Source: Desulfogranum japonicum DSM 18378
Lineage (GTDB): Bacteria > Desulfobacterota > Desulfobulbia > Desulfobulbales > Desulfobulbaceae
DNA: 64,000 nt
Assembly (NCBI RefSeq): GCF_000429945.1
Contig: NZ_AUCV01000001.1
Coordinates: forward strand, 310,001 to 374,000
Reading direction: 5' to 3'
Numbering within the stretch: the stretch's first letter is position 1; each line of letters opens with the position of its first letter. The notes below the pieces were generated by a model, which was not told the origin of the DNA, did no database searches, and worked only from the letters and a program-made list of their open reading frames with translations. Below are positions 8,646-62,322 of the stretch, in pieces. A program made the position numbers and the translations under genes.

Positions 8646-8825
8646 GGAACACCCCTGCTCTGTTGGTGATTATCGGAGTATTGAGCCAACTCTCATGACA
8701 AGGGTAGCTTCATTGCATAAGGATGGAAATCTTTATTGATTACCTGATTTGTGTAAGATGCATTGCCCACCTAATTTTATTAGGTTTAATCATTTCGTTA
8801 ACACGGCAGCGCGGGGGTTCTTTTT
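8646..8825 (+). ncRNA. ssrS: Probable 6S RNA (SsrS)
   Basis: An interval of about 180 bases directly after zapA has the 6S architecture. A GC-rich closing stem forms between GGAACACCCCTGCTCTGTTG (8646-8665) and AACACGGCAGCGCGGGGGTT (8800-8819). Less paired sequence on both sides (8666-8680 and 8785-8800) would form the central bubble, and an internal hairpin such as CCTAATTTTATTAGG lies at 8770-8784. 6S RNA mimics an open promoter and sequesters sigma-70 RNA polymerase in stationary phase. The position after zapA is the classical one. Ends are approximate. Confidence 0.72.
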
Positions 8826-58256: not shown

Positions 58257-58356
58257 GTCGTTCAATTTTATTGTTCTTGAGACCCCGTCAATGACGAGGT
58301 CTGGAAAAGCTACACATAACAGTGTCATTTATCAAGTTTCTGGGAGGAAATACGCT

Positions 58357-59277
58357 ATGTCTGTTTATGTTTTTGGTCACAAGAGTCCTGATACCGATTC
58401 TGTAACTGCGGCTATTGCTTATGCTGAATTGATGAAAGCGAAAGGCGAGGATTTTATTCCCGTCATGCAGGGAGAGGCTAATCCAGAGACAGTAACTGTC
58501 CTGGAACGTTTTGGTGTTGCTGCTCCTGAAATTATGACAGATGCCGCTGGCAAGCAGGTTGCACTCGTAGATCACAGTGATCTCTCCCAGGCTCCAGATA
58601 ACCTGAGTGAAGGAGAAGTTGTTGCAGTAGTTGATCATCATAAAATTGGTGATGTAACCACAAACAGCCCAATCTTTTTCTGCAACATGCCTGTAGGCTG
58701 TACAGGTACTGTTCTGAAAATTCTTTACGATTTGGAAGGCATTGCCGTTGACCCTAAGGTTGCAGGGCTTATGCTGGCTGCGATTTTGAGCGATACTGTT
58801 AACTTCAAATCACCAACCTGCACCGATGCAGATAAAAAAGCTGTCGCAGAATTAGCTCCTATCGCTGGCGTTACCGATACTGATGCACTGTTCATGGACA
58901 TGCTGAAAGCAAAAAGTGCTGTAGCTGGTGTACCTGCCATGGATCTTCTGAACCGTGACTACAAAGATTTTGATATGAAGGGTAAAAAAGTTGGCGTTGG
59001 ACAGCTTGAGCTTGCAACCCTTGATCAGGTAGCTGATATGCGCGGAGATCTGATGAAGGCAATGGAGGAAATGAAAGCTGATGGTCGTCATTCCATCCTG
59101 CTGATGCTCACCGATGTTGTTAAGGAAGGAACAGACTTGGTCGTTCTTTCAGATGAGCCTGAAGTTATCGAGAAGGCTTTTGATGGTAAATTGACCGACA
59201 ACACCATGTGGATTGACGGTATGATGAGCCGTAAAAAACAGACTGTTCCAAATCTGCAAAAAGCTTTTGGCTGCTAA
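58357..59277 (+). CDS. ppaC: Manganese-dependent inorganic pyrophosphatase
   Basis: The 306-residue family II enzyme hydrolyses pyrophosphate. It has DHH-family motifs: GHKSPDTDSVTAAIAYAEL at the start, VDHSD, VVDHHKIGD, and a DHHA2 domain ending MMSRKKQTVPNL with the substrate-binding SRKKQ. Sulfate reducers often use it to pull sulfate activation forward by removing pyrophosphate. I chose the ATG at 58357 because GGGAGG precedes it by 9 bases. Confidence 0.97.
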   Translation: MSVYVFGHKSPDTDSVTAAIAYAELMKAKGEDFIPVMQGEANPETVTVLERFGVAAPEIMTDAAGKQVALVDHSDLSQAPDNLSEGEVVAVVDHHKIGDVTTNSPIFFCNMPVGCTGTVLKILYDLEGIAVDPKVAGLMLAAILSDTVNFKSPTCTDADKKAVAELAPIAGVTDTDALFMDMLKAKSAVAGVPAMDLLNRDYKDFDMKGKKVGVGQLELATLDQVADMRGDLMKAMEEMKADGRHSILLMLTDVVKEGTDLVVLSDEPEVIEKAFDGKLTDNTMWIDGMMSRKKQTVPNLQKAFGC

Positions 59278-59341: not shown

Positions 59342-60481
59342 TTATTTTTTCAAAAGTGCTTTCCGTTTTTCCAGTGCTTCCTTGACATGACGACTGACCT
59401 GTTCATCTTCAGGTAAAGAGTCGTGCAGAGGCATAAACCTGTTTGTGTAAAGATCTCCCTTGCCTTTGGTTTGCTGGGTACCTTGCAGGTAAAGGGCTTT
59501 TTTCTGCTGCAACTGTTCCAGCATGGCCTGCAGCTTTTCCTGTTTGAACTTTTCATTTTCAGAAAGCTGGTCTTTTTGGGCATAGGGCGATAGTAACCTG
59601 GTAACCTGGGTAATCTCCCGTTCCATCTGTCTATATTCCCCTGTGTGCTTCTTTTCCCAGAATCCGTTTCCTTCAAGGGAAATTTTGAGTACTCCAAGAT
59701 ATTTCCCCCGTTTTTCCGTTTGGCAGATAATAGCGTTATTCACCTGCTGCGGAGCAAGATTGCTGGCGCGATATCCGGATTGGAGAATGATTCGTATGTT
59801 GCTGAATTGTTCAGCAATACGAACATTTTCCTTGTAGGCATAGTTAGACAGCAGCATAATGAAATCGCTTTGCTGACTGAGCTGCTCAAGTTCGCTGCTA
59901 ATCGCCTTTTCCCAGGGAAGAGCCTGGATATCCTGTGCATTATCAAGCAGACTGTGATCTGTGAGCGCGATAATCCCCAGGGTATGTGGCCCTGCCTGTA
60001 CGGTTGTTGCAGGTGTAAAAAGCAGTTGGTTTTTGCTGTCAAAAATATTGGCTGAAAGTGCAGTGAACGCGTGTATGTTCAACAGCGTTTTCAGGTATTC
60101 AATTCCTGGCGCAAGATCACCGGATCCAATCCCATACACAGCACTTTGTCCATGCAGGTAGTCTTTTGCGATGACATTGAGTTCTGGCAACCTTGAGGAA
60201 ATCTGCTGTTTTACCCTGATTGATGGGCTGAAAAAACAGTTTCCTCCTTCCAGCAGCAACGTATGCTGTTCCTTTGACTGCAGCGTTTGTATCAGTTCGA
60301 TTCTTTTGGACAGACCGCCCAATGAGTTGTGGCCTCAGCCACAGGAATCGAGTTCACCCTGGAGATCATTGCCATAGAGGATCTGCACTACTGTCGGAAC
60401 AGCGGCTGCTGATGCCATTTGCAGCTGGGTTACGAGACATACAGAAAAGAAGAAGAAACATATTCTATGTAAAAATTGCAT
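59342..60481 (-). CDS. Selenoprotein: degenerate metallophosphoesterase-like protein with CGU motif
   Basis: Read through one UGA, this is a 379-residue exported protein. A signal peptide (about 1-27) is followed by LYGNDLQGELDSCG-U-GHN then LGGLSKRIELI. UGA is codon 49 (60335-60337). Homologues in the 5'-nucleotidase/calcineurin superfamily that I recall carry a CGC motif here before GGLARR, so the Sec replaces the second Cys. A SECIS-like hairpin (60306-60322, TTGGGCGGTCTGTCCAA) lies 12 nt after the UGA, with loop GGUCU. Usual metal ligands are changed: NDxHG reads NDLQG, and the GD region reads GGN81. It may be a redox protein on a dead phosphoesterase fold. Confidence 0.85.
60306..60322 (-). 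promoter_or_regulatory. SECIS-like hairpin for selenocysteine insertion
   Basis: On the mRNA strand, TTGGGC and GTCCAA pair (one G-U) around loop GGTCT. The loop begins 18 nt after the UGA. Position and loop closely match the E. coli fdhF SECIS (loop AGGUCU, 17 nt after its UGA). It lies inside the coding sequence, as expected in bacteria. Confidence 0.8.
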
Positions 60482-60759: not shown

Positions 60760-62322
60760 ATGAGACATAGTATCCTGCTTGTAACACAAGATGACGATGT
60801 AGCCGCATGTGTTGCGGCCGCTTTGTCTCAGTATACACTCTTATTGAGTAAGAGTGAAGAGGAGGCGTTGGATCTCCTTGCCGATAACGAGGTTGCGTTG
60901 GCACTCATTGATGACGCAATATCAGGTTATGACGGTAGAGAGCTATTTGCCAGCCTCAATCTTCAACATCCTGCAATAGCTGGAATCTTGTTAATCCACA
61001 CACCAGAGAATGAGCAACTTCGAGCTTCTTTTGAAGCTGGTTTTTCCGGTGTTGCCATAAAACCTCTGAAGCCGGTACATCTGCAAAAAGTAGTTCGTCA
61101 GGCCTTTGATCGAATAACCCTGCAGGCGGAAAATATACAGTTAAGGACTCTGCTTCCTCTATATAAATTGGCAGAGCAGTTTTTAGCATCAACAGACGAA
61201 CAAGGAGTGCTGGACTGTCTTCTTGCCACCATAGAGCAACTGACGGACGCGAAAAATATATCCATAATGCTTTATGATGAGTCGTCGGCCTGTCTGCGCA
61301 TAGCCAGAGCCAAAGGACTGGACCAGGGAGTAATCAAATCCATCAGAATGCAACCCGGTGAGCAGATAGCCGGATGGGTTTTTGCAGAGGGGAAACCTGT
61401 AATTCTCAATAAGGAAGACCAGTACCATTCCATTTTTGCTCCTTTTCTCAAGCGGAATGATATTGTCTCTGCCATTTCTTATCCGTTGTCAGTTCGTAGT
61501 CATATTCTCGGCGTGTTGAATATCAGCCTGACCTCCAGTGACCGGCGGTTTAGCGAAGCAGACAAAGAGATGCTCAGTATTGTTACCAGCCAGGCAGCCC
61601 TCGCCCTTGAAAATGTACGTGCTCTCGTTCAAGTGGAGTCTGCCGTGCGTACCAGGACTTTGCTGGAACAATTTGTAGCCCCCCAGGTTGCAGAACTGCT
61701 TATCAATAAACAGGCAGACCCCGTGGATTTGGGAGAAGTTCTCAGGGCTACGGTGCTGTTTGCAGATATCAGAAATTTTACAGGTTTAGTACAGCATCTT
61801 GCACTGGACCAGCTTCGTCTTTTCCTGAATGATTTTTTTAAAATATTTATTGATGCTATTTTTCAGGAACAGGGCACCATAGACAAATTTATGGGAGACG
61901 CTGTACTTGCCGTATTCGGGGCTCCTGTATCCATGGAAAAACCCAACCACGCTGCAATGAGAACCGCGCTTATAATTAGACAGAGGTTTCATGAACTGCG
62001 TGAAAAATGGACTGTAAAATGCGATGTTCTAGCTTCCGTTGATTTGGGAATAGGAGTAACCTGCGGCGATGTGTTTTTGGGGAATGTCGGCTCGGTGCAG
62101 CGTTTTGACTATACGGTGATTGGTCACGATGTCAACTTGGCCCAGCGTCTGGCAGCACTCTCTTCATCCTGCAGTATTTATGTGACGAGCCGGGTAAAGG
62201 AGAATGTAAAAGACGCGTTTGTTCTGGAGAGCAGGGGCCCTACTCAGCTCAGGGGCATTGAACATCCACTTGAAGTTTTTTCTCTCAAAGGTATGAAAGA
62301 TAAGGGCTGTGGCAAATACTAA
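60760..62322 (+). CDS. Adenylate/guanylate cyclase with receiver and GAF domains
   Basis: The 520-residue cytoplasmic protein has a receiver-like domain (1-120: ILLVTQDDD, ALIDDAISGYDG, VAIKPLKP), a GAF domain (about 140-285: ISIMLYDESSACLRIARAKG, AGWVFAEGKPVILN), and a class III cyclase domain (about 325-490: VLFADIRNFTGLVQHL, KFMGDAVLAVFGAP, GIGVTCGDVFLGNVGS, YTVIGHDVNLAQRLA). The two metal Asp are within ADIRNF and GDAVLA. It makes cAMP or cGMP in response to phosphorylation or a ligand. A cognate kinase is not adjacent. Confidence 0.93.
   Translation: MRHSILLVTQDDDVAACVAAALSQYTLLLSKSEEEALDLLADNEVALALIDDAISGYDGRELFASLNLQHPAIAGILLIHTPENEQLRASFEAGFSGVAIKPLKPVHLQKVVRQAFDRITLQAENIQLRTLLPLYKLAEQFLASTDEQGVLDCLLATIEQLTDAKNISIMLYDESSACLRIARAKGLDQGVIKSIRMQPGEQIAGWVFAEGKPVILNKEDQYHSIFAPFLKRNDIVSAISYPLSVRSHILGVLNISLTSSDRRFSEADKEMLSIVTSQAALALENVRALVQVESAVRTRTLLEQFVAPQVAELLINKQADPVDLGEVLRATVLFADIRNFTGLVQHLALDQLRLFLNDFFKIFIDAIFQEQGTIDKFMGDAVLAVFGAPVSMEKPNHAAMRTALIIRQRFHELREKWTVKCDVLASVDLGIGVTCGDVFLGNVGSVQRFDYTVIGHDVNLAQRLAALSSSCSIYVTSRVKENVKDAFVLESRGPTQLRGIEHPLEVFSLKGMKDKGCGKY

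Follow-up and report, generated by a model that had tools for sequence, protein, structure and literature searches.

UshA-like selenoproteins are already on record as a group. They were listed in 2008 under COG0737 with a CxU motif, with 76 selenoprotein sequences in the Global Ocean Sampling data (PMC2398784); the same combination of UshA-like, COG0737 and CxU is tabulated in PMC9312934, and the NCBIfam profile NF041198, "UshA-like (seleno)protein" (UshA_like_PCGU), is tabulated with CxU in PMC13188914. The passages of these three papers that deal with the group state no function for the Sec form, and in the literature searched we met no earlier report of a dead metal site or of a heme fusion in UshA-like selenoproteins.

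Here we describe a member of this group encoded in a 64-kb window, by which we mean the whole stretch of DNA that was analysed. The best profile for the window protein is NF041198, at 254.3 bits against a cut-off of 275; model positions 2-380 of 519 are aligned and the last quarter, including the C-terminal region at positions about 391-519, is unmatched. The core C-G-U of the profile's P-C-G-U motif is present as S-C-G-U, with Ser for Pro, and the protein belongs with the published COG0737 UshA-like, CxU family. The first-pass annotation knew of no described selenoprotein of this type; with NF041198 in existence and such entries in papers since at least 2008, that claim is not supported, and we rejected the idea of an undescribed type. 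Because the protein scores under the cut-off of NF041198 and lacks its C-terminal domain, we file the gene as a variant without hemes within an established selenoprotein family. The equivalog cut-off of NF041198 misses heme-less variants like this one.

Reading frame, UGA codon and hairpin

The gene occupies 59342..60481 on the minus strand (coding 59345-60481, TAA 59342-59344) and is complete, giving 379 residues when UGA is read as selenocysteine. On re-reading, the frame from ATG 60481 to the stop at 59342 is interrupted only by a UGA at codon 49 (60335..60337, minus strand), in the context DSCG-U-GHNSLGGLSKR, just as first annotated. Homologues align to the 379-residue frame over its whole length. 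A probable Sec-type signal peptide covers about residues 1-26 (60404..60481, minus strand), recognized by eye from a hydrophobic core followed by ASAAA; residues 2-22 form a helix in the structure model of the protein. Cys47-Gly48 (60338..60343, minus strand) completes C-G-U with Sec49, and this Cys is missing in some relatives.

Two sets of homologues were used to read the codon 49 column. The first, of 53 close homologues, combines 48 loci of same-order relatives with 5 from named contigs; it drops L001 (the same gene as L032), the distant L044 and L045, and nine further loci, seven of them identical to kept rows and two, L075 and L069, 96% and 73% identical to L030 and both carrying UGA. 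Seven active-type loci were also excluded, four of which served as controls. The second set, of 99 rows across the phylum, is part of the profile matches—loci returned plus 40 picked regions—with five repeats dropped (L099, L103, L106, L107, L109) and a few near-copies left in. At the Sec column the 53 rows have UGA in 46 and TGC or TGT in 7, so that relatives with the CGC motif named in the first-pass annotation do exist. The 99 rows have TGA in 91, Cys in 7 and CGA in 1, a count to be read with the fact that wider-search matches without TGA lie mostly outside this set and may carry Cys or other residues. The distant matches L044 and L045 (153.1 and 129.5 bits) show Cys at the column once aligned. 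Homologues with a residue other than Cys had been named beforehand as evidence against selenocysteine; one was found among the 99, the tetraheme homologue L091, whose codon there is CGA (Arg) and whose partner Cys is replaced by Ser, and we judge that it does not outweigh the remainder. Since L091 branches in the tree with relatives that carry UGA, its state looks secondary, and its redox site has probably been lost.

The genome encodes complete Sec machinery, each component above its curated score: selA at 611.7 bits (cut-off 268), selB at 359.6 (cut-off 242), selD (L059) at 366.8 (cut-off 125) and tRNA-Sec (selC) at 75 (cut-off 47), with anticodon tca (UCA). The matched region of selD itself contains one in-frame TGA; this selD is probably a selenoprotein too.

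A 17-nt SECIS-like hairpin, UUGGGC-GGUCU-GUCCAA (60306..60322, minus strand), starts exactly 12 nt 3' of the UGA and has the GGUCU loop described for it; presumably it resembles the SECIS of E. coli fdhF. When all TGAs on both strands were scanned for six pairs around a five-base loop beginning GGTC, 8-20 nt downstream, this was the only UGA in the 64-kb window with such a hairpin. The folding energy of the 48-nt hairpin region is ordinary (z = -0.48), so support comes from conservation and not from stability. At gathering scores, Rfam gives no match at the selenoprotein gene; elsewhere in the window it places a 6S RNA at 8649-8821 on the plus strand (RF00013, 59.5 bits).

That conservation is close to complete. 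The hairpin codons are GGC in 46/46 UGA genes, GGT in 42/46 and CTG in 46/46; outside the hairpin, GGT accounts for 17% of the Gly codons of these genes. Binomial significance values for these codons are overstated because the sequences share kinship. Within the stem, four of the six pairs are invariant across these 46 genes, and a fifth reads G-T in 38 and G-C in 8. The outer pair occurs as C-G (22 genes), T-A (15) or T-G (2), and seven genes leave it unpaired. In the seven Cys genes the hairpin is fully paired in L066 and L068, has one broken pair in L003 and L025, and is gone in L016, L017 and L039. Across the 99-row set, GGCGGTCT stands just 3' of the UGA in 73 of the 91 UGA rows and GGGGGTCT in five more; the remaining 13 have variants of the downstream sequence.

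Bacterial selenoproteins are marked by an in-frame UGA, a hairpin immediately 3' of it and a genome that encodes Sec machinery, and all three are found here. Under translation table 11 the same DNA offers a 326-residue ORF from TTG 60322, 3' of the UGA, which is what a reading of the UGA as a true stop has in its favour, whether the gene is decaying, makes a shorter protein from that TTG, or carries a sequencing error for TGC or TGT. We regard this as barely credible given a UGA at the same column in 91/99 rows, conserved protein on both sides of it, frozen hairpin codons and the complete Sec machinery, and on the shared column we rejected pseudogene, true stop and sequencing error alike. Column conservation, the near-frozen codons and the machinery together uphold the first-pass call of selenocysteine, which, judged from sequence, is very likely inserted at codon 49, with the hairpin just after it guiding SelB to the UGA. 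Since the listed ORF begins after the UGA, a standard gene caller would probably drop the signal peptide and motif, as was anticipated, and the same would probably hold for the signal peptide and active site of other such variants.

The gene stands between a divergent upstream neighbour, a GAF/adenylate-guanylate cyclase gene (60760-62322, plus strand), and a convergent downstream one, a DHH/DHHA2 gene (58291-59277, plus strand). Genes identified by Pfam nearby are the DHH/DHHA2 protein, the cyclase with GAF domains, folE2 and Bax1-I. An operon context was rejected, the neighbours being divergent and convergent and the nearby Pfam genes suggesting no pathway. By eye, the DHH/DHHA2 gene is kept downstream in the genus relatives L064, L067 and L071; upstream of the selenoprotein gene, the relative L062 has an AAA+ ATPase of the MgsA/RarA type.

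Fold, metal site and partner cysteine

Residues 29-379 (59345..60397, minus strand) form a pseudo-metallophosphoesterase domain with the fold of the 5'-nucleotidase/SoxB N-terminal domain. The model of the window protein has a mean pLDDT of 85.6, and in a structure search it resembles 5'-nucleotidases and SoxB across residues 28-379: the top solved 5'-nucleotidase, 5h7w, gives a VIA Z of 31.1 (275 aligned, rmsd 2.4), and SoxB 2wdc a Z of 30.3 (271 aligned, rmsd 2.9). Compared with active-type relatives, the window protein keeps D39 alone among the metal ligands and has Q41, N81, S120, G121 and N213 at other metal positions, with no GHxH; the degenerate site (NDLQG, GGN, no GHxH) is present as first described, and the dinuclear ligand set of UshA/SoxB metallophosphoesterases is lacking. 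Five ligand motifs were scored—DxH, GD, GNH[E/D], TH and GHxH. Among the 99 family rows, D.H is kept in 12, GD in 25, [TS]H in 15, and GNH[E/D] and GHxH in none; no row keeps more than two of the five, whereas all four active-type relatives keep each of them. Because the ligand motifs are degenerate across the 99 rows, the dead metal site is a trait of the sampled family and not peculiar to the window gene. The window protein is rather more probably than otherwise an exported redox selenoprotein, a pseudo-metallophosphoesterase on a dead 5'-nucleotidase/SoxB fold.

The partner cysteine of the published CxU pair is not found in every member. At the aligned position, with the last place Cys or Sec, 78 of the 99 rows read CxU and 13 read CxxU; the other eight lack Cys at all three positions preceding the site. 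Among them, L034 reads CGSGU, and L091 has lost Sec as well. The remaining six carry UGA without any Cys over the six positions that precede it: L036, L037, L120, L121, L122 and L129, with the sites RLGU, PGGU, PSGU, PAGU, PVGU and PLRLU. Spacing is altered in L034 and L040. Six UGA rows without the Cys mean that a selenenylsulfide within the loop is not essential to all members; as the aligned sequences have it, the partner Cys is dispensable, not obligatory. Cys253 is found in each of the seven rows from the genus of the window (26/99 overall), and it is possibly the alternative partner in that genus.

These observations bear on a second use for the selenium, in which Sec is incorporated and acts as a metal ligand, or as a heavy-metal or selenium site, in a remodelled centre. 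Part of the site does survive, with Asp39 retained by 47 of the 53 close homologues and Asp122 by 52 of them, and a dispensable partner Cys fits a ligand as well as it fits a lone selenolate. The other ligand motifs, however, are rarely or never kept, position 81 is Asp in only 1 of the 53 rows, the His positions vary freely, and the heme fusion in many relatives points to electron transfer; we consider such a role unlikely.

Tetraheme domain across the family

Four CxxCH motifs stand at the C-terminus, the part of NF041198 that the window protein leaves unmatched, in 64 of the 99 aligned relatives, a set whose heme-less share is enriched by choice because the second batch of picked regions was mostly heme-less forms. 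Pfam Cytochrome_C554 matches 3/3 heme-bearing members scanned; the model of a tetraheme relative is poor in the heme region. No CxxCH occurs in the window protein or in six relatives read from its genus, whose records are named Desulfogranum and Desulfobulbus, and five rows of two further genera, g7 and g12, are also heme-less. Two of the heme-less relatives are identical to proteins recorded for Desulfogranum marinum DSM 2058 (L064) and D. mediterraneum DSM 13871 (L067), so that small heme-less members are on record for these strains; two more, L062 and L071, are identical to proteins of MAGs labelled Desulfobulbus propionicus. The first-pass description of the protein type overlooked the missing C-terminal tetraheme domain, common in relatives.

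In a 52-row tree, 12 heme-less rows from the family of the window group together with support 84, and around them stand heme-bearing rows of that family (23-row node, 96). Constraining the 26 heme-less rows tested to one clade gives a tree that is rejected (p-AU 1.4e-6). Together these are most simply explained by one loss, separate from the other heme-less forms. A smaller tree with fewer relatives placed heme-less rows near the base, compatible with a later gain of the hemes; the better-sampled trees, which replaced it, nest heme-less rows inside heme-bearing ones. The tetraheme domain, then, has probably been lost in the window's genus and its neighbours g7 and g12. What is new here is a lineage that probably dropped the four-heme tail yet kept the selenium site. 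Searching the whole genome of the window with the L028 heme segment turned up no stand-alone copy, in a run that had no positive control.

In three cases (L123/G068, L124/G221 and L125/G105) a heme-less member with PCAU directly adjoins a tetraheme one with PCGU, and both genes have a UGA of their own; such a pair is possibly a two-subunit cassette.

Proposed mechanism and comparison with known systems

We propose that the protein is exported; it keeps the N-terminal fold of UshA, CD73 and SoxB with the dinuclear metal site gone. Sec lies in the loop that follows the first strand, the one bearing the DxH ligands in true phosphoesterases. Its selenolate, sitting in the abandoned substrate cleft, would most likely act as redox centre or nucleophile. 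In heme-bearing relatives the fused tetraheme cytochrome domain may feed or drain the Sec electrons; with that domain probably lost in the window's genus, a separate partner would have to carry them, and a periplasmic thiol or cytochrome would take over electron transfer. As substrate our favoured guess is a sulfur or selenium compound because of the resemblance to SoxB.

The resemblance can be pressed further, to a metal-free, SoxB-like action in which a carrier protein or small molecule brings a bound persulfide or selenide and Sec accepts or cleaves the group. It is true that 39/41 members match TIGR04486, the nearest named cellular family by member count, and that SoxB is among the top fold matches; the SoxB-type metal motifs are missing, however, and the window protein itself scores only 26.3 bits against the SoxB cut-off of 550, so we hold this to be quite improbable. 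The explanation we favour, with fair though not strong confidence and from sequence data, is an exported protein whose Sec serves as a redox centre or nucleophile within an abandoned cleft, electrons passing through hemes or a separate partner. More tentatively, as a generalization that could well prove wrong, UshA-like selenoproteins may be phylum-wide pseudo-metallophosphoesterases with a lone Sec as redox centre at the old metal site, often tetraheme-wired; the window's lineage would have shed the hemes and some close relatives the partner Cys, leaving a Sec-only periplasmic redox protein. What makes the function testable is that the metal site is dead across the sampled family, that Sec outlasts the hemes and even the partner Cys, and that small heme-less members are on record for D. 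marinum DSM 2058 and D. mediterraneum DSM 13871.

Among known systems, NF049981 (UshA-like (seleno)protein family 2) is a distant N-terminal match at 37.5 bits, far below its cut-off of 140, and its motif is CxxU in the entry of PMC13188914. With the SoxB thiosulfohydrolase and the UshA and CD73 5'-nucleotidases the window protein has the N-terminal-domain fold in common; it differs from them in that the metal ligands are gone, their second (C-terminal) domain is missing and Sec is present. The closest likeness is to NF041198: the window protein lies under the cut-off, is without the C-terminal tetraheme domain and has SCGU for PCGU, but it likewise has the N-terminal fold and C-G-U, and its place in the tree is among heme-bearing members, many of them above the cut-off.
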